Part shown: piece by piece, positions 12,374-55,664 of the stretch | How positions within the stretch are numbered: the first letter of the stretch is position 1 | Layout: each line of letters begins with the position of its first letter | DNA from: Taiwanofungus camphoratus | Taxonomy: Eukaryota; Basidiomycota; Agaricomycetes; Polyporales; Taiwanofungaceae | Assembly: GCA_003999685.1 (NCBI GenBank) | Contig: CP021230.1 | Span: forward strand, 1,426,001 to 1,490,000 | Reading direction: 5' to 3' | DNA: 64,000 nt | Translations under genes and position numbers: made by a program | Notes under the pieces: model-generated | The model's database searches: none | Seen by the model: only the letters and a program-made list of their open reading frames with translations | What the model was told of the DNA's origin: nothing

Positions 12374-13952
12374 TTAGAATAGTCCAGTTTTCTTGGTTTT
12401 GGTAGTGCTATCACGATCACCTTTCTCCACGCCTTGAAATGGTATCCTGTCTTTATGCAATGGTGCATTAGTGCTAATATTGTCTCCAGGCTCACCTCTC
12501 AGGTCTATCTGATTGTATGGAACGTGTTCTGGGTTATGTCTGGTGCTTATTAGCTCCCTGATCATAGATTACATTCCTTATCTCTTCTCTTGTAGTTGGT
12601 ATATGTGTGAAGTCGTCTACTGCAGTGGTCATTAGATCAGAGAAGTGCACTCTTTGGAGTGGTGGTGGGGGTTGAAAAAGTTCTTCTCATAGGCTGTCGC
12701 ACTTATCTTTGTGCTGGACTGCAGGTGGTTTGTCTGGCCCTCTTGAGATTGCCAGTGATGGGTATGTCCATATATCTTTGTCCCATTTTGGAAAGCTCCA
12801 GATGTCCTTTGTCTTTGCTGATTCTAAAGTTTCAGTTATCCATCTGGTGTGTGCCTTTTTATAAAGTCGTTTGAAGTAGTTCTGCAATTTCTTAATCAGT
12901 GCTGATACAGGAGCTAATTGTGTACCCCAGTGCCTTTGATGATCCAGGTTCATTAAGCGTTGTTCAGCAATGCACTTATTTGCTGTCTCTAGTTGCTCAT
13001 TCCACCATGGCCTTGCCTTATTGCTCAGTTTTTGTATTGGAACTGCTTCCTCGTTCACTTCCTGCATGGCTTTGATCAGGCTTTCTGTGGCATTATCAAG
13101 CTGTTCTTCCATCAGGTCTGCCTCCAGATTGAGCAATATCTGGAGGTTCTCATTGTGATTTGCCATTGTCCTTTGGAACACTTCCCTCTATTTCTTTGGA
13201 TCAGCAGCCTTAAAGTTGAATCTTTTATCTATAGGGTTTTTGATTTCCTTTGTGCCGTAGTCCAGGTCCCATCTTAATGTGAAGTGGTCAGAGCTGAATG
13301 CTTTCATCCTGTCTATGATCCAGTTTCTTGCCGCATCCAGTGTTGTTGTTGTTGGATTGAGGAATGTTAGGTCGATTGTGGACCATGAGCTGTGGGCATG
13401 TGAGTAGAATGTGGGTTCACCTTTCTTGTTTTTGAGGGTGTAGCCTTCCTGATTCAGCCAGTCTACTGTTTGTTCCATAGACTCATTCGCCAGTGTTGCG
13501 TGCCTGGACCACATTGGATGGTGGAGGTTCCAGTCACCTGAGAGGATTATTGGTAGCTCCTGCAGAAGGTTGATATGTTGTAAGTGTTTCACTGTCAAAT
13601 CCCTACCTTGTCTTCTATTGTCATTATATAGATTCACAATGATTGTTGATGGGTGTGGGTTCTGTTGGACTTCAAGGATCTGCATGTCAAGGTCATTAGC
13701 TAGGTCCAAATGTAGGGTTACAGTGAAGTTGTCTCATTTTTGCACGTATGCTATAGCTTGTGGCCTTCTTCCCTCTAGGACTGTTGATACTGGGATTATT
13801 GGCATCCATCCTGCTGCCACTTCTGAAACTGGTCCTTTGTTCTCCCCTCCAATATTGCCCCACCACAGTTCTGTGATGAGAATAAGGTCAAAGCTCTCTG
13901 CACCTATCACTACATTGAGGAGTGCATGGATTGCTTGGTTTTGTATATTCAC
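12374..13952 (-). pseudogene. LINE ORF2 remnant: endonuclease and N-terminal reverse transcriptase
   Basis: The frame at 13952-13188 holds an endonuclease/exonuclease/phosphatase domain. It shows the glutamate block LILITELWW, the GDWNLHHPMW block and the C-terminal SSDHFTLRWDL block, so the catalytic signature residues are present. One TGA codon near 13733 interrupts it. Frames at 13181-12687 hold the linker (ARPWWNEQLETA, TYPSLAISRGPDKPP) and 12565-12374 the next part (RIPFQGVEKGDRDSTTKTKK). There the LTR-like repeat intervenes. The protein would act in target-primed reverse transcription but cannot be made from this copy. Confidence 0.8.
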
Positions 13953-16511: not shown

Positions 16512-19029
16512 CTACGGCTCCACACCCAGTGCCTTCATGAAGGTCTCATATGTGACCACTTCCTTCCTCGTTTCTATAAGCTGTCGAAGCCGATCAGCTA
16601 TCATAGGTTCGTCTGGTTTTCCAGCAGCGCGTGAAAGACGCTCTCGCAGACGGCCATAACGGTCATCCGTTTCGTGAAGATCCCCGAACAGATCTCGCAG
16701 GCTGACCACCCATTCGTTGATGAGTGACTCGAAGCAGGAATTGGCACGTCCCATGACCCCTTCATACGCCTGCCGATACACCATAAAAAGTTGTTTGGCA
16801 GCACCAATTGATGTCAAGTCGTCATTCTGCCAGGTATTTATGAAACCGATATAGTTCCGGGTAGGATCGAATGAAGTACAGAACCAAACCAGGACATAGA
16901 AGAACGATTCAAGGTCGAAGCGGTATAAGTGCCGCGGCGTTTTGGTCTGCTTGAGAAGATCAAGAGCCATAAATGGGCCTGTACCAGTCCTATAGCGCGC
17001 TCTGCATTGCTTGACATGCTCATCATCGTCCTTTCCAGTCCCTTTGTTGTCTCCATCGACCCCATCGGCGGAGTTCTTCTGAGGCGGTGGAGGCTTTGGA
17101 ATGTCTCCCTCGACTGGCTCTACGTCGTCAGCTTTGGGCATCGTTGCTGCAAGGTCCCAGTCGCACAGGACACCAACAGCACGTCCATGCTCTCTGTAGA
17201 ACATGATATTATTGATGCTGATATCCCTATGCAAGATCTCCGATGTCTCCCATACATGATGGTGAGCTATGAGATACTTATATATTAGCACCATGACTAG
17301 TGGACTAGGAATCACATTGACAGACGTACCACGAACTACGGCAACGAAAATGTCCTTGAATTCCTCAGGACCGTTCACGAGTTCGAGAGGAGAATAGGCT
17401 TTGAGGACGAGTGTTCGACAGACACGCTCTTCCACATCGTCCACACCAAAATGCCGAAGATCGCCCATTGATGCTCGAGGTAATTTCATCTCCTGCATTG
17501 TGCGCGTGAGTGAACATTTGAGGTCAACTATGTGCTTGAGGTATTCCGGCCTGAGCTTTTTCCGGACCTTTCTTATGAAACAGTCTTCGGCCTCGCGCAT
17601 CTTCGACGGCCATGCAATTTTGGCGACTAATTTTTCCTCTCCCCACAACTGCTTTGCTTTGCCCACAGCTTTCACAGGCACGACCGTCGTCCCTCGGCCG
17701 ACAGCACCGTATGCCGTAAACACTCGCCTCTCTTCGTCAACGACAATGTCGAAGTGCAATTTCTTGATCTCCTCGTTGTCTAAGTCTCTAGCACTCGGCA
17801 GTACGAGCTTCGCTCCCGCGTAGCTGTTATATGTACGCGGAGGGAATCTGAGAAAGGGAGAGATTCCCAATTTCGCAAGATTGGCTGTTCGAATTGCAGC
17901 AACCACGAGCAGCAGCAGATACGGCTGTTCCAAGAAGTCAAAGCCGGCCGACTCGACCAGTCCCATCCGGTCAGCATACCATAGATAAACGCGGGTTTCG
18001 CGGATCAGAAATCCAGTGGCATAAGAGCGTACTCCATGAGACAGTAGCTCGTTCAGGTATTTCGTCGCCTGTATATCATATTGTGTTAACGCATTGCCTG
18101 TACCAGACTCTGTTTTGGATTTTTGTCCAGTGCCCTCGGATACCCGCCTGCGCTTTTTAGATGACTCTTCATCAGCGTCTGCATCGTCCCCGGGATGTTT
18201 CCGCTTGGAGACACTTGGGTTATTAGGCTAATCATAACAGTGAAAGAAAGCCTGCGCATCAGACAAAAGCATGGAGACGGCAACGAAGCCACATACGTTC
18301 TTCAGCATTCTCACATCTACCTTTACATCGGTGTCTTGGGTATATGTTGGCATTGCCACCTTCTTAACTTCTCCGACTGCACCAAGCCACTCCCAATTCT
18401 GCCGGAGCTTATCTTGGTCGACAGTGCCATAGGCAAAATCCGGTTTAAAAGCCGCAAAATTACCACCTACTTTACCGTCCCGCAAGTTGATGAATTCTGC
18501 TGACACAGCCGGTCGTCTGAGGGATAACTGCTGGATCAGCTCGTCGAACATAGCCTTCAGCCATTGGTAGCAGCCTCTTTCTCCCTTGGTGGTCCTCATG
18601 TAGTTTACGAGATTCGTATTTGACAGCGAATATATGCTTCTGTGCTTTGGAAGGTTGCCAGGGGTAAATCCCCACACTTCTCGAACAAAATCGATCACAG
18701 GGTAATCTCGTGCAATTTTCCCTTGGAATTCCCTCTGCAGGAACCTCTTGACCCTTTCATCCGTAACTCCACTCTCAGTCTGGAGACTGGACATGCCTGC
18801 TTTGCATGGCGTAGGCCAATCTTGTACCGGATGCGAAACAATGTTAAAATCATTTCTGTTTACAAGGTCGACTGATTCACTCACCAGATTGTGCATTACG
18901 ATCTGGTGGTGGCGTAACATATCGGGTAGGTTGCTGACCAGCGGATATGGGAACAAACTTGAGAGGAAAGCAGTCTGGAAGATCTCCAACGGTATCTCTC
19001 TCTTCGTTTGAAGTGTCGTTGTCGAGCAT
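16512..19029 (-). CDS. FunK1-type protein kinase
   Basis: Exons on the minus strand are 19029-18885, 18796-18297, 18227-17330 and 17266-16512 (765 codons). The C-terminal half has the fungal FunK1 kinase signature: catalytic loop HRDISINNIMF, then CDWDLA in place of DFG, and the RARYRTGTGPFMALDLL block. The N-terminal half is a typical FunK1 family region (KPDFAYGTVDQ, GEVKK). The 63-base intron 17267-17329 is a multiple of three and has no stop, so naive translation inserts 21 residues between VVR and AHHHVW. The acceptor of intron 1 could be AAAG or CAG (both in frame). FunK1 kinases are numerous in Agaricomycetes and substrates are mostly unknown. An upstream in-frame ATG near 19109 is an alternative start. 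Confidence 0.88.
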
Positions 19030-41529: not shown

Positions 41530-44500
41530 CTAACCAGAAGCATCCACTACGGCTGCCACTTTGCTCGGCTTTTGCGTGACAGGCATAGTAGTTGGCACCG
41601 CGCGATCTGCTCTTAATCTCTTTGCATCGCCGTTTCCGGCCTGCAAAGCGGGGCCATCGTCGTCCTCAAGATCCTCTGAGGATCTTTTCCGGAGTCTGGC
41701 AGATGGAGGAGTCACTGCGGTCATTGGTGAGTACGTTCCGTCTGTACGTGCACGTTTTGGAGGACTACCGGATCTGTTATGGGTGCTCCTGCTGTATTCA
41801 TCGCTTTCAGCCGCGTCGGAGAACGCATCGGCGTCCAGCTCCTTCGAGCGCCGCTTGCGAGGGGTTATAGGTAGAGCTGGAGGACGAGGGGGCGATTCTG
41901 GGACAGAGGTGTCGTCCCCCTTCTCAGACTCGCCGTCCTCCTCCTCATCTTCTTCCTCCTCCTCTTGCACAAGATCAGCAGGGAAGTCTTGGATCCGAAT
42001 CTCCACAGGTTCTTGTGTCACAGCTGTTACCTGTTGGTCGGTAGCAGGAACCTGTTGTGCTTGGGAGGGCACGACGGTACCAGCTTCAACGCTGGCTTTC
42101 AAGTTGGCCCTCAAAATGGCGCGCTCACAAATAGAACATCTGCAATGGTACAGTGGCGCGCATGCCTCGCGCCACACCTGACAACCGATTGTTAGATAAG
42201 CACCGTACAAAGAGCAGAGGAGAAAGCGCACATATTCAAACGCAGACAAACTCCACTGTGGCATATGAGAAATTGTGACGGGAATGTAAGGTATGGGGTG
42301 CAGAGGTTCCGGAGATTTGAGGACGGGCGATATCGGGATCGCAGGTGCAGTTGTCGTGATGGGGGACGCGACGGAGTCGTCATCTTTCGCGCTCGCGCTT
42401 CCACTTGGAGGAGGAGAAGGCGTGGTCTGTAGGGTGGTGGTGGATAATACCGGGCTTGTTGTGTGAGACCCGTCCGATCTTGACGAAGTAGAAGAGTCGT
42501 CTTCATCTTTTCTCTGCCTTTGCGCCCGTTCTCGCTCCCGTACAAGTGCCCGCCGCTCGAGCCAATCGACGCCATTCAGCCACGTCGCTTCCTCGCGCAG
42601 CTCCCGCACCACGTCTTCCAAAGTCATGGGCGCCGTCCTGACCGTCGGGTCTATGCCATCTGCCGTACTTTCGATGACGACCCGTCGCACGATGTTCTTC
42701 ATCGCCGGTAGTAAGATGTCCCGCATTTGTTGCCTGAAAGCACGGAATGCTTGGTCACAGAGTGCGAACGACGGAGGAGTGATCGATTGGTATGTCTTCG
42801 GCCTCGGGTGCATCAACATTTCACCATCGCTGGTACATTCGCTCTCGCCGTCTTCCAGCGCACCAGAGTACAGTGATCCTGGGTGCCATGGGCATGGGTG
42901 CTCGGCAGGTACGACGTTCCTCTCGCTGGCGAATCCATACCACTGGTCCGCCGGGCTGATCCAATGCCCGTCCAATATTCTCGTCCGCGCCCAGTCGTTG
43001 ATCGCGATGTCACGCACACCACCCGCATCCTCCGTGATACTCATCAGCTCCGGATCGTCCTCCTCTTCTTCACTCAACTCATCTTCGCTCCCGTACTCAT
43101 CGCCTGCCTCTGCCCGCGATACGTACCGTGACGCCGCGAGCGCCTGCTGCAGCATGTCCGGTAGCTTCGTGTACAGCCGCAGCCAGTGCTTCTCCTGCGC
43201 AAGCGTCACCACCTCCCCGATCGTACCCTCTCCTAGGTCGATGAACGCCTCCACCGATTGCCGCGTCTCCCAATCCGCGCTGTTCCACCTGTAGCCTCCC
43301 ACCGCGTCCCGATCGAACGCGCTGTGCGCAACCCGTCGCCACAGCCACTCGCTCCGGCACATCCGACACGTCGCCTCCACCCCTGGCCACGTCTTGTTGT
43401 CCTCGTTTTCCACGCAGCACATCGCCGTCCCCGCCGCCATCTCCGCCTCTCCCTCCATCACCGGCGCCTCCCGCAGGCACACCCCGCAGTACCCGCTCTT
43501 CCCGTGCCCCCTGCACATCGCCACAGCGCCCAGCTCTGGCACCACCATCATCCGCCGCGCACTCATCAGGCCCTTGTTCGTCTGCGGCCAGTTCACCCGG
43601 CACACCACGCATGACCGGCTCGTGATCGTCCGGAACAACGCCCTCGGCGTCAGACGAACCGGCCCCACGTTCGTCGACCCTGCTGTCGCCGTCGTCTGTA
43701 CCACCGCGAGGTGCGTCAGTACGCTGTGCGGGTCGATCGTGAATATCGCGTGTTGCCAGAAGTTGTGTGTTTCCACTGGTGAAGGCAGCTCGTCAGTAAA
43801 TGTCCGCAACGGAACAACATGAAAATAACAGTCCCGATGAGATACGATACGATACGATGGTTAGTCTGCAAGACCCAGCTAGTCAACCGCAAAATAGCAG
43901 TCACGAGGCCCTGCGTGCGCCAACATCACTCTCAAAGCTTCGTCAGTTTTAGTAGGTAGATAGCAGTCCAAGCAGGGAGACAAAGCCGAACCGACGTCAC
44001 ATTCGACTAGATCTGCAAGCTGACACGACCCCGTGCGTCCGTGACTACAGGGTCGAGTAGCTAGGCCACGTACCAGTTACACCATTTCGGTAGAGAAGAG
44101 TGGCCAGGCTTCTGTTCGCAAATCCTGGCCACCCTCATCCAGTGAATAAGAGGCGCAAAAGAAACAGTAGACACGCCAGAAGCACGCCGCGCAGACCAAA
44201 CGGACATGATATGACGCGCGGACTTACGAGCGCTATGCCACAACGGGCATATGTATAGTCTTTCGAGGTCGACCGCATCGCGCAAAACGGCGTACATGTT
44301 GCGGTTCTGGTACATGTACCTCTGTTCCCATGTTCCTGGATAGTAGTTTGTCGCCGAAAGTTCGTAGAGATAGTGTGTGGCGATGAGTCTACAAGTGGTG
44401 TTCAGTGACGAGTGGCGTTATAGCGTGCAGAACAATCCCAACCTGATGACTTCTGGAGGCAGCTGCTGCCATGACCTTGACTGTTTTCCTTTGTAGACCA

Positions 44501-48462: not shown

Positions 48463-50529
48463 ATGCGGCTTATAGAGTCTAGATAAGCTACATTTTGTCG
48501 AATTGTGAATCTCAGTAACATCGTCTGTCAGGAAATTCCGATGACTATCTAGACTCCGCAGACTTGATTACCCAGCACATACAAGTAGAGATTCCATTGC
48601 TTCACATCATTACATCGGCCATACAATGAAGCGAACAATATGAGAGCTTTTTTGTACTTCCAGTTCATGGAAAAAAATAGTAACAAATAAGAACCTTACC
48701 GTCAAGTAGCCGGAACAGTCAGCAAATATGTATCTCGTTGCTCAACGTTCAAAAGACTGCGTATGTCAAGTGATTTCTGTGAGTTGTTCCTCGTGTATCT
48801 GACCCATGAATGATCTCTGTATTCTACTTTGTTTCGGTACAGTTTGCTTTCAAAGGTAAATTCCACAGGCCGTCAATGATTATCAAAATCGGCGCTGCGG
48901 TTATCATGTTGACATCATAATCTGAAGATAGTGAGCACTGACCAGTTCCCCCGTCCGTAACAAAGTCATCAACATCATTATGAGTCCGTTGGGTGAATGC
49001 GTACAAGATATGGAGCGAAAGAAATGCGATTGGACGTGGCTTGGAGTCCAAAAGAAGTGATCGAAGACAAATGATCCTGGATTGGCTATTGTTTCGGATG
49101 CAGGAAGATATGTAGTACTGTATGATATAAACAAGAGATTTGCAGGAACTTGGCTAAATGCATACCAGCACTATGGACCGAGAATTTTGGTGGCAATTTC
49201 TCTTGACGCTCTCTGCAGCCACCTGCGTGTCACAGGCCGCCGAATAAAGCAGTACAAGGTACGTCTTCAGAACGGAACTCGCGTATACATAGCAGCTTAT
49301 GTGCCAGTTTGAATCTAATCTAAGCAGTGCATCAGTCATTAACATCTCAGATCAGCTGGCGGAACAGAAAGAATGACTTTCGAATTTCTGCGCCAGTATC
49401 ATTCGACACACGTTATGTCAGACGGACATTGGTCCCCAGTTCTCTTGGGTAGCATCAGCTCGCTTAATCTCGTATCCAGAACATATACGGATGCTCAAGG
49501 GACCGTCCTGATAGATCTTACCAGGCGGCTTGAGTTCACGATCCATCAGGCCATACCTGAGAGGTTGGTCGAGTACCTTGGGGCAGAAGCACCTAGGAAT
49601 CAATTGAAAGCAGGGCATGGCTGGAGCAATGATCTGCAAAGGCCACAAACGCGCTCCAATCTGGGCGGTGTTTCTGACAGCTCGACAATCAGTGTCAGTT
49701 GTAGCTCGAGTGGCACAGATAAAGACCCGGCGTATACGGAGATCGAGAAGGCTTCGATGACACAACATGGGCGTTAACGCGTTACCCCATCGCGAGAAGA
49801 CCCGAAACTACTCACCATCATTAGAGCCTTTTTGATAAGTCGTTCGTCTTTCCGAGACTGCGCAGGCAGTGAGCGTAAGAAATCGTTACCGACTGGCGTT
49901 GCGAACGCTCATCGTATGCCAATATATAGACATGGACCACACTCCATTTATCTCCTTGACTATTAAGCTCTGTCGCTCTATTCGCAAGGTTGTAAATGGG
50001 GATACGACCACAGACGATCTCCATGCCTGACTTCTGCATGCTTGCCGCAATGCTTCTTTAGATTAGCGTGGGACCCTCGGATTAAACCTTTCACGGTCGC
50101 ATCATCAGAAGAGAAGTTGCAGCTCTGAAAATGAGGAAGTATTGAATACTGGATAACGCTGCGGCAGGTCCTACATTTGCAAATGCAAGTCATCTAGAAA
50201 AGCGGGGACACGAACAGTTCTCACCATCCCATGATCACATTATATTTTAACTGATATCTGTGTCAAAAAATCGTCAGCATCTTTTCCATTGCTATATAAA
50301 TGCCTCGCTGGATGAGCCCATCCGTACTGGAACACCCTGTGCTGTAATCCGCTTGAAGTATGAACAGAATTTTGGGACCAACCTGGTACCAAAATCCAAT
50401 GGCATGTTGCAGCGCCCTGAGACCTACGCAACATGCTGGTCGATGGCGAATGAGCGTTCTCCCAGAAGAAGGAACTGGCTTGCATTATGGATATGGTTTA
50501 TTATGAAGTGAACGAGCACATTTCAAATC
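48463..50529. other. Intergenic, no supported gene
   Basis: Frames on both strands (for example 49373-49777 plus with 49418-49768 minus) overlap and resemble nothing known. Short minus-strand hydrophobic frames at 48824-49134 could be remnants of a membrane protein, but I cannot support this. Confidence 0.4.
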
Positions 50530-51425
50530 TACGTACCGTCCAGCCCGCAACAAGGTTACTATACAATATTTGCACAATCTCCGCAAGAGCGGTACACCTA
50601 TCACGATGCTCACAGCGCACACCCTTGCAACCGGACGTGCGTGTGATGCCCATGGCATTAATACTACATTCGTGGGCGACTCCCTCGCGCAAGTCTGTCT
50701 GGGATACGACTCCATCACTCGTCTCACCCTTGACGAGATGTTACACCACTGTCGCGCCGTCACACGCGGGAGTAAGACTCCATTTCTTTTAGCGAATGTG
50801 CCGTTTGGCACATATCAGATCGCAGAAGAAGCAGTGTGGAACGTTGTCAGGCTTATTAGTGAGGGTGGTGTGGAGGGGGTCAAAATCGAAGGAGGTCGTC
50901 GATGTCGTGAAGGGTTGAACGAGCATTGGGATTCCGGTCATGGCGCATATCGGCTTGCTGCCTCAGCGGCATGCGTCTCTCTCTGGATACAAAGCTCAAG
51001 GCAAGGACGCAGAATCCGCGCTCGATATTTTCGAAAATGCGCTTGCCCTAGGATACGCAGGAGCATTTGCCATAGTCCTCGAGGCGATCCCTGGTGCCCT
51101 TAGATCGTACGTCACTCGTAGGCTTCATCATGTGCCCACGATCGGTATAGATGCAGGTTGGGAGACGAATGGACAGGTGCTTGTATGGGACGACGCCATG
51201 GGCACATGGAGCGGGCACAGGGCAAAGTTTGTGCGCCGATTCGCGGACATCAAGGTGGGGTAAAAAATATGTTCGTGGAGTCAAGGACAGAAGCTTCCCG
51301 TCGATCAAAGAGAGCTGCAAGGTGTCAGAGACAGAGTTGGAGAAGTTTATGAGCTTGGCGGACAAATTCGATCCGCAACATAGAGCAGATGTCATGGCGG
51401 CCATAGTCGTACAATTGTGCTAGAG
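50530..51425 (+). pseudogene. Decayed copy of panB (ketopantoate hydroxymethyltransferase)
   Basis: Three plus-strand frames match successive parts of the intact panB at 54451-55491: GRACDAHGIN...VGDSLAQVCLGYD (from about 50570), GHRAKFVRRFAD (to 51262) and SFPSIKESCKVSETELEKF (to about 51360). The match starts at the TIQHLHNLRKSG equivalent, so the first ~70 codons, including the mitochondrial presequence, are missing. Frameshifts separate the three parts, and about 15 bases are lost near 51262. The Mg-binding Asp of VADMTFG is Asn here (LANVPFG). It lies in inverted orientation to the intact gene, with one gene between them. Confidence 0.9.
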
Positions 51426-51923: not shown

Positions 51924-53857
51924 ATGCGAACTAGAAGAAGACCCGTCTTGCAAGATAAGACGCCGGGGAATACTCCTCAGTCTGCCAAGTCTCAGCGTAC
52001 CTATGTCGCTGGCTCGAAACAGAGCTCGCGCAGCAGCTCCAAACGTAGCCCTCTGGGGGCACTCAAGCTTCTTAAGCGAGAGGACCCATACGTTTCACGA
52101 GAGAATGTCGCTCCTGCACTTGTTCCGCCTCCGTCTCCTAGACCAGTTCATGTTCGCACTGACCCGCCGTCCGGCATCCCTGATCTGGAGCCAGATCTGC
52201 TCTCCAGCCCTTCTCTCGTCAAATCAGCGAAGCGACTAGGCATAGCACCTGTGCTCATGCAGTCAACGCCTCTTGCACTTCGTCGTAGGAAGATCCGTCT
52301 TCCGCTCCATAGACTCCCCATCCGTGACCGGGACGGCGATCGTGGTCCCACCGGGAATGAGGCTCATGCCATTAACTCACTGAGACGCGATCCATCGCCT
52401 CTGCCACCCTCGTCTCCTCCCTCTAACTCGTCATTCTCTCAACGGTTTGTCCTTCCGCCGGTTCATCCCCGGGACTACCATCGTCCTGCAGAGGTAGAAG
52501 ACGAAGATGAAGACAAAGAGAACATCAATATGGGAACAGACGCATTTTACGTACATAAAGACAAAGTCTCAGAGGAGGAAGATCCGTTCGGGTTCTTTGC
52601 GACCGAGAACAAACTGAAAGCATTACGAGCTCAGCACCCACTACGTTCGGGGCAGAGCTCGCGCAAGGGCAAGGAACCAGCTGTACCGTGCCGCGCGCCG
52701 TTGGGGACCTTATCTCTCGTGGAACCCACTCCTCTTTCAGCATTAACGGCATCTGCGCAGCCACCCTCACCCGAGGATGAGCACGACATCGACGACTTTT
52801 ATCTCGATATATATAGCCCGCGCCCCGGCGGTGAACTGTTGACGGAAGACGTGCACGCGGTACCTAAGCAGTCGCCTGGTTTGGGAAGCGTGAGCGACAA
52901 CGATGTGGACGAGGACAAAGAGAATGCGGCTCCGCTCCCAGCTCCCGCCCTGATACCGTCCGCGCTCCTCCCCTTCTCCATCGCACCTTCATCTTCGTCG
53001 TCCGCCGATCCTCTGCGCACGCCCCACAAGCCACGCAGTGCACGCAAGCGCATGCCACTTCCCTCCGTTACCTTTTCCCGCTCGGGCTCGAGCTCTTCCC
53101 CTGCCGTCAGCGAGATGCGGAGCCTCGTCCCCGACAACTTGTCGTCTCCCTCGCCAAGTAAAGCATCTGCTGCCAGGCGTGCGAGTGGTCCGCTACCACT
53201 GGTCAGGGGCTCTGCTAGTCTGCACAGAGCTTCGGCAGCCACTCACAATGTCGCGAAGGACGATGTCAATGACAAGGAGAACGAGCTTCCGAGGCTGACT
53301 GGCAAGAGACGGCGCGCAGCTGATGCGGGCAGCGACAGTGAAGTCGACCCTATAATTAAGTCGCGTCGGTTGGAGGAACTACTACCGAAGAGGCCAGCCA
53401 AGCGTCCCACACGTACCACGGCAGGTCGGGGGCGGGGTAGGGCGAAGGTTCAGGTTTCGGAGATGGAGAGTGATGGAGGGAACGATAGCAATACCGATGA
53501 AGACGCAGAAATCAACAAGAAGCGCTCTACGTCGGAAAGAGGCAGGGGAAGAAGTAGAGGCCGGGGCAGAGGCAGAGGTAAAGGCAGAGGAGCAGCCGCG
53601 AGTAGTCGCCCAGCGACAACTCGAGCTGCCGAGAGTAAGGAGAGACAGAACGGGAAGAAGAGAGCGAGGGCAGACGATGGCGAAGAGATCGATCCGGAGC
53701 AGGAAGAAGTATGTTAAGTATGCTTTAAAGACTTAGCTTCCTGAGTGCTGACTGCCGCATGTAGGAACGTGCTCGCGCACGCCAGGCGCGGCTCGAATAC
53801 TTTCGAAAGCTGGACGAGGAATATAGTCTGGAGAAGGAAGACATATATGTTATTTGA
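51924..53857 (+). CDS. KEN-box nuclear protein, candidate sororin-like cohesion factor
   Basis: Two exons, 51924-53708 and 53765-53857, phase 0, 625 residues. It is almost entirely disordered, basic and Ser/Pro-rich. Three DKEN motifs stand at residues ~198, 332 and 451; KEN boxes are APC/C degrons. An FGF motif occurs at ~222-224 in an acidic context (EEEDPFGFFATEN). An RG/GR-rich stretch (GRSRGRGRGRGKGRG) precedes the end. The short second exon gives EYFRKLDEEYSLEKEDIYVI, which resembles the C-terminal end of metazoan sororin (aromatic, then M/L-N/D-x-E-F/Y, then E-x2-D-L/I). In animals sororin binds Pds5 through FGF and antagonises Wapl. The combination of KEN, FGF and tail is what I see; the sororin assignment is inference and could be wrong. 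A generic cell-cycle-degraded chromatin protein is the alternative. Confidence 0.6.
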
Positions 53858-54450: not shown

Positions 54451-55491
54451 TCAAGGATCAAATTTGTCCACCAGATTCATAAACTTTTCCAACTCTGTCT
54501 CCGACATCTCGTAGCTCTCTGCGATCGATGGGAAGCTTCTGTCCTTGACTCCACGAACATATTCTTTTACTCCATCCTCGACATGGCCCTTGACATCCGC
54601 AAATCGGCGCACAAACTTTGCCTTGTGCCCGCTCCATGTGCCCATGGCGTCGTCCCACACAAGCACCTGCCCATTCGTCTCCCAGCCAGCGCCTATGCCA
54701 ATAGTGGGCATATGATGAAGCCGACCAGTAATGCACGATCCGACAGGGTGAGGGACAGCTTCAAGCACGATGGCAAATGCACCTGCGTCTTCTAGCGCAA
54801 GCGCACTACGAAAAATATCGAGCGCAGACTCCGCATCTCTGCCTTGCACTTTGTATCCAGAGAAAAATGTATGCCGTTGAGGTAGCAGCCCGACATGGGC
54901 CATGACCGGGATACCGACACTCGTCAGCTTCCTGACAATGCCGACAACTTCCATGCCCCCTTCGATCTTGACACCCTCTACGCCGCCTTCTTTGATAAGT
55001 CTTACAGCGTTTCGCATCGCGTCTTCTGCATTAGTTTGATATGTGCCAAAAGTCATATCCGCGACAAGGAAGGGAGACTTGCTGCCCCGGGCAACAGCGC
55101 GGCAGTGGTGCAGCATCTCATCGAGAGTGAGGCGAGTGGTAGAATCGTAACCCAGACAAACTTGCGCGAGAGAGTCGCCCACGAGAGTGATGTCGATGCC
55201 GTGAGCTTCACATGCGCGTCCAGTTGGAAAGTCGTAAGCTGTGAGCATTGTAATGGGGGTACCGCTCTTGCGGAGATTATGCAAATGCTGTATGGTGACC
55301 TTTTTTCGGGCTTGACGGGCTCTATCAACATATGGGATATACCACGACATGGGTTGGTACTCACAGTAGGGGACGGATCCCTCTTCTGGGCGCACGCTCA
55401 TCCATCTTCGGCCAGAAAGGTGCACAGGTCTCGAGACACTACACCGTGCCGCACTATATAGGTGTCGAATAGGTGTTAAATGCCTATTCAT
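54451..55491 (-). CDS. panB: 3-methyl-2-oxobutanoate hydroxymethyltransferase (ketopantoate hydroxymethyltransferase)
   Basis: A single exon of 346 residues. It adds a hydroxymethyl group from 5,10-methylene-tetrahydrofolate to 2-oxoisovalerate, making ketopantoate for pantothenate and coenzyme A. The first ~35 residues are Arg/Ser-rich without acids (HLTPIRHLYSAARC), a likely mitochondrial presequence. The TIM-barrel motifs are complete: ITMLTAYDFPTGRA, LVGDSLAQV and VADMTFGTYQ (metal-binding Asp residues), GVKIEGG (Lys), GLLPQR, IVLEAVP (Glu) and PTIGIGAGWETNGQVLVWDD. Length is usual for the fungal enzyme. A dead copy lies 3 kb away in inverted orientation. Confidence 0.95.
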   Translation of the reverse strand: MNRHLTPIRHLYSAARCSVSRPVHLSGRRWMSVRPEEGSVPYCEYQPMSWYIPYVDRARQARKKVTIQHLHNLRKSGTPITMLTAYDFPTGRACEAHGIDITLVGDSLAQVCLGYDSTTRLTLDEMLHHCRAVARGSKSPFLVADMTFGTYQTNAEDAMRNAVRLIKEGGVEGVKIEGGMEVVGIVRKLTSVGIPVMAHVGLLPQRHTFFSGYKVQGRDAESALDIFRSALALEDAGAFAIVLEAVPHPVGSCITGRLHHMPTIGIGAGWETNGQVLVWDDAMGTWSGHKAKFVRRFADVKGHVEDGVKEYVRGVKDRSFPSIAESYEMSETELEKFMNLVDKFDP

Positions 55492-55664
55492 GATTCCAGG
55501 CTACAGACCAAACGATGAATGTCCACATCGACAAGGCCTTATGTAGAGTGAGAAAAACGCTTGATATTTCTTTGACATAGCTGTGGGTGAAAGTGTGGTG
55601 TGATCGTGGTATGGTAAACCTTTTAGGCCTGACTCCCTGCTACTAGATCGCGTGCATATGTGCA

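Follow-up and report, generated by a model that had tools for sequence, protein, structure and literature searches.

A candidate sororin with KEN boxes, an FGF motif and a C-terminal box in the basidiomycete Taiwanofungus camphoratus

Sororin keeps sister chromosomes together until cell division and determines which cohesin escapes WAPL. In a stretch of 64,000 nucleotides of the T. camphoratus genome (assembly GCA_003999685.1, contig CP021230.1, positions 1,426,001 to 1,490,000, here called the window), a gene of two predicted exons encodes a protein that probably adds a new member to the sororin family, of which other fungi already have known representatives. That the gene encodes a divergent fungal sororin, a true orthologue, is the explanation to which we lean, with modest confidence. 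Along the protein lie KEN boxes, an FGF motif, a basic stretch and a terminal box, which is the order found in sororin.

The preliminary description of this DNA took the common yeast models to lack a known sororin, which would make a basidiomycete homologue notable. That premise is outdated, since Schizosaccharomyces pombe Sor1 has been published and tested, with a role in cohesion, an interaction with Pds5 and a requirement for the box residue F299 (PMC11148194). A Sordaria sororin is also known, together with deletion mutants, and shields Spo76/Pds5 and Rec8 against Wapl in meiosis (PMC12758814). Candidates have been put forward in Pezizomycotina, Lipomyces and Yarrowia (PMC11148194), and the Aspergillus fumigatus sororin has been modelled (PMC10656103). 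An animal-based model initially gave no significant matches in fungi or plants. Candidates there were chosen by C-terminal position, hydrophobic pattern and absence of other domains; a significant match in Lipomyces came afterwards, from a model restricted to fungi (PMC11148194). The sororin box has been described as a short helix with its terminal 4-5 residues on Smc3, with predicted contacts between the box and Smc3-Scc1 in animals, Arabidopsis and Aspergillus, and between FGF and both WAPL and PDS5 in vertebrates (PMC10656103). FGF is found in vertebrates and, putatively, in S. pombe and is reported absent from Arabidopsis and Sordaria; KEN is found in vertebrates and in Dalmatian and is reported absent from S. 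pombe, Arabidopsis and Sordaria. In the main texts of open-licence papers (supplements excluded), no literature was found that joins sororin with Basidiomycota or Agaricomycetes.

The product of the candidate gene is 625 residues long once 53709-53764 is spliced out, and ends ...QEEERARARQARLEYFRKLDEEYSLEKEDIYVI. Of six listed donor/acceptor pairs, two retain the C-terminal tail, YFRKLDEEYSLEKEDIYVI, one giving the 625-residue product and the other, with an acceptor 21 bases further downstream, a 618-residue variant; the remaining four drop it. The second exon translates as ERARARQARLEYFRKLDEEYSLEKEDIYVI. The tail had been described as a separately encoded 31 residues; these correspond to predicted exon 2, with 30 codons and a stop. 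Judged by eye, the protein is of low complexity. Its features are as follows.

51924..53708, + strand: exon 1, residues 1-595; 595 stop-free codons, beginning at the first in-frame ATG past the upstream stop
51996..52019, + strand: RTYVAGSK, residues 25-32, a possible PDS5-loop-binding motif, proposed from its likeness to the WAPL of the same genome
52512..52523, + strand: DKEN box 1, residues 197-200, from motif search of the protein
52587..52595, + strand: FGF motif, residues 222-224, inside EEEDPFGFFATENKL, from motif search of the protein
52914..52925, + strand: DKEN box 2, residues 331-334, from motif search of the protein
53271..53282, + strand: DKEN box 3, residues 450-453, from motif search of the protein
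53301..53642, + strand: residues 460-573, a K/R-rich stretch with RG repeats that precedes the box, from charge counts
53709..53764, + strand: predicted phase-0 intron of 56 bp, with donor GTATGT, branch-like TGCTGAC and acceptor TAG
53765..53857, + strand: exon 2, residues 596-625 and stop, the putative sororin box, from the splice-pair listing

The gene is flanked on one side by a ketopantoate hydroxymethyltransferase gene (panB; 50507-51374, + strand) and on the other by a second, frame-broken panB copy in opposite orientation (54454-55500, - strand), the two copies being 77.6% identical over 865 aligned columns. Elsewhere in the window, on the - strand, are an Exo_endo_phos_2 domain of the endonuclease-reverse transcriptase type (13191-13733), which probably derives from a non-LTR retrotransposon; a fungal-specific protein kinase (Pkinase_fungal, 16515-18227), of the kind named FunK1; and an open frame of 776 residues (41533-43860) that contains acidic runs and matches nothing in Pfam at E ≤ 0.001.

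The internal motifs of the preliminary description were borne out by motif search of the 625-residue protein: KEN occurs at residues 198, 332 and 451, each time preceded by D, and FGF at 222-224. Among 20,000 shuffles of the protein, at least three KEN arose in 4 and at least three DKEN in none, which puts the triple DKEN outside what chance would give; FGF arose in 164, making the single FGF only mildly unusual. A 52-residue query around FGF matched its own locus alone in the 33.2-Mb genome (E ≤ 10, among the best candidates scored). No YSR motif occurs in the candidate, the only segment of note in this respect being RTYVAGSK, some 190 residues from FGF. In sororins a K/R-rich stretch directly precedes the box; here the densest K/R window, residues 532-551, ends about 45 residues short of exon 2, and the 36 residues preceding that exon (560-595) are non-basic, with 8 K/R against 10 D/E. 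As motif evidence, the three DKEN boxes point to likely cell-cycle degradation and say nothing of function, a point that would suit a nuclear protein unrelated to sororin, of low complexity and under APC/C control, such as a factor of replication, the spindle or chromatin; its charged C-terminal helix and its FGF would then resemble those of sororin by chance or convergence. The same explanation is favoured by the RG repeats, which match SmD1 and uS5 chains only: when the whole protein was compared with the PDB at E ≤ 1, seven chains were matched (six SmD1, one uS5), all at residues 526-560.

The likeness of the tail to that of sororin, also claimed at the outset, survives as a resemblance of pattern only; direct tests of homology gave no Pfam match and no significant alignment with the human tail. 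A profile search of the last 31 residues against the sororin family found nothing: PF25220 (Sororin_C) was matched by none of the 625-, 53- and 31-residue queries at E ≤ 10, nor by anything across the whole genome, in a scan whose control matched below the cut-off in one bacterium. Against this model the human sororin sequence gives 38.3 bits. PF09666 (Sororin_middle) was likewise without a match in the candidate protein (E ≤ 10) and in the genome, in a scan whose control matched in 0 of 14 genomes, so that the genome result by itself does not establish absence. Because the animal-based model at first missed fungi and plants, a failed Pfam test is expected for true and false fungal members alike.

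Direct comparisons were made against a background of 7,995 stop-ended segments of at least 20 residues, taken from 264 kb of the same genome (the window together with 20 loci of 10 kb, some 0.8% of the total). The human tail gave zero BLASTP alignments with the candidate at E ≤ 100. Its Smith-Waterman score was equalled or exceeded by 425 of the 7,995 segments and by 1,873 of 5,000 shuffled tails; since background and shuffles score as high, the tail has no detectable similarity to its human counterpart. YFRKLD in the tail does resemble YFRDIDAFE of the plant Haspin sororin domain, a 9-mer taken from PMC11148194. With gaps, 5 of the 7,995 segments (the tail included) and 48 of 5,000 shuffles score at least as high, this being the most favourable of the three tail comparisons made. 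Without gaps the figures are 22 segments and 169 of 5,000 shuffles, a weak result. From the strict animal core, FxE[A/Phi][E/D]x[F/Y]EL, the tail departs by an aromatic shifted by one residue and by K in place of an acidic residue. A relaxed core with a one-residue insertion, devised after the tail had been seen, has four matches overall in the six frames of the 264 kb, and lies near a stop only in the candidate tail. AlphaFold2, given the 30 tail residues alone as a single sequence, predicts a helix at residues 2-19 and then low-confidence coil (mean pLDDT 77.3; 57 over the last ten residues), a weak test because charged peptides often yield helix. No PDB chain was matched by the tail (E ≤ 10) or by the human tail (E ≤ 1).

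Among the best candidates scored, the tail query matched only its own gene in the 33.2-Mb genome, and the Pfam Sororin models gave no better sororin elsewhere. The canonical core, back-translated, has 15 matches in the 33.2 Mb against 4 for a reversed control pattern. The most sororin-like of the 15 translations by eye, FLNLDEFEF (C14, the one match of the 15 whose genomic context was viewed), was rejected: at least 50 residues follow before the frame ends, and it lies opposite a longer frame. Viral contigs searched with exon 1, by means of six peptide patterns all without FGF and tail, were matched 125 times, and none of these matches was confirmed as a relative.

A tail that fails Sororin_C and equals background against the human tail also fits the unrelated nuclear protein. 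Against that explanation stands an aromatic-containing box at the extreme C-terminus, placed in sororin-like fashion after a basic stretch and FGF, and no other Pfam family reaches the cut-off in the candidate, a weak PET117 match (E 5.6) lying far below it. We regard the unrelated protein as possible but rather unlikely. It is improbable that the candidate is instead a cohesin- or PDS5-binder of another kind, comparable to the plant Haspin proposal (PMC11148194) and not orthologous to sororin: of the two sororin pieces compared the plant Haspin box is closer than the human tail, and short boxes may move between proteins, but Pfam detects neither a kinase nor any further domain in the candidate, and Haspin is a separate gene in this genome.

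The partners of a sororin are encoded in the same genome. WAPL is found as two adjacent pieces (loci L003 and L004), the higher score of the two just equalling the cut-off of 24.6 bits; PDS5 carries the loop YAPDAPYT (APDAP); an Eco1-type acetyltransferase scores 60.5 bits; kleisin N-termini occur at two loci; and the acetylation site of Smc3 reads GLKKDE, with KK present. From WAPL, PDS5, the acetyltransferase, the two kleisins and Smc3, the pathway in which a sororin acts is present. The WAPL frames contain MKHTYSRK upstream and VRTYAGKSRSFLV ahead of the domain. RTYVAGSK of the candidate (51996-52019) resembles RTYAGKSR in the WAPL frame. In fungal WAPL, binding to the PDS5 loop has been ascribed to the motif TYxxxR[T/S]PhiL (PMC10656103); relative to it, the WAPL of this genome has one extra residue between TY and R, and in the candidate the remainder of the motif is missing. 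RTYVAGSK and RTYAGKSR might both address the PDS5 APDAP loop, and the candidate could compete for PDS5 if this segment binds it. The pattern [KR]TY.?AG, picked post hoc from the candidate and WAPL, occurs in 16 of 20,000 shuffled candidate sequences.

Read as a sororin, the candidate would be unusual in uniting FGF, KEN and a box. With vertebrate sororin (CDCA5) it shares KEN, FGF, a basic stretch and, at the C-terminus, a short box for which a helix is predicted. It differs from the human sequence in length (625 against 252 residues) and in having three KEN boxes against one, and it lacks the YSR that stands near FGF in vertebrates; its box has one extra residue relative to the human box, with 17 residues beyond its F against 11 beyond human F241. 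S. pombe Sor1 (SPAC9E9.05), compared by description, likewise has a putative FGF, a K/R-rich stretch and a C-terminal box (PMC11148194). The box of Sor1 has a single phenylalanine, F299 of 313 residues, and the candidate tail too contains one F (PMC11148194). The candidate is twice as long as Sor1 and has three DKEN, whereas KEN is reportedly absent from Sor1, which reportedly showed no degradation in Xenopus APC/C extracts (PMC11148194). Sordaria macrospora Sororin (SMAC4_08091), also compared by description, is similarly long (701 aa), with a C-terminal box behind a K/R-rich part; unlike the candidate, which has both, it is reported to be without FGF and KEN (PMC12758814). The sororin domain of plant Haspin, YFRDIDAFE, shares with the tail a box start of the form YFR-x-[I/L]-D (PMC11148194), but lies within a kinase, and between its D and the aromatic that follows there is one residue fewer than in the candidate tail.

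As a sororin, the protein would accumulate in S/G2, its C-terminal helix would clamp the Smc3-kleisin gate, and FGF, perhaps together with RTYVAGSK, would occupy sites on WAPL or PDS5. Acetylated cohesin would thereby be held on replicated DNA against WAPL until, after anaphase, the APC/C destroyed the candidate through its DKEN boxes. The motifs, their order and the partner genes are seen in the sequence; we infer family membership as well as each of these contacts, the degradation and the timing. We put forward more tentatively, judging it rather less likely than otherwise, that this is a basidiomycete sororin with FGF, multiple KEN degrons and a box. It would suggest an animal-style, APC/C-timed form in the ancestry of both fungi and animals, and a loss of KEN control in those ascomycete lineages (S. 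pombe, Sordaria) from which KEN is reported absent. Such a sororin may also bear a WAPL-like RTY-AG motif that competes for the PDS5 APDAP loop.

If this reading is true, what is new is a fungal sororin that keeps FGF, KEN and the box together. Two fungal sororins, those of S. pombe and Sordaria, are reportedly without KEN, so that destruction in the cell cycle might be taken for an innovation of animals. With a basidiomycete protein that has three DKEN, FGF and a box, the ancestral state could be tested in mushrooms amenable to genetics.
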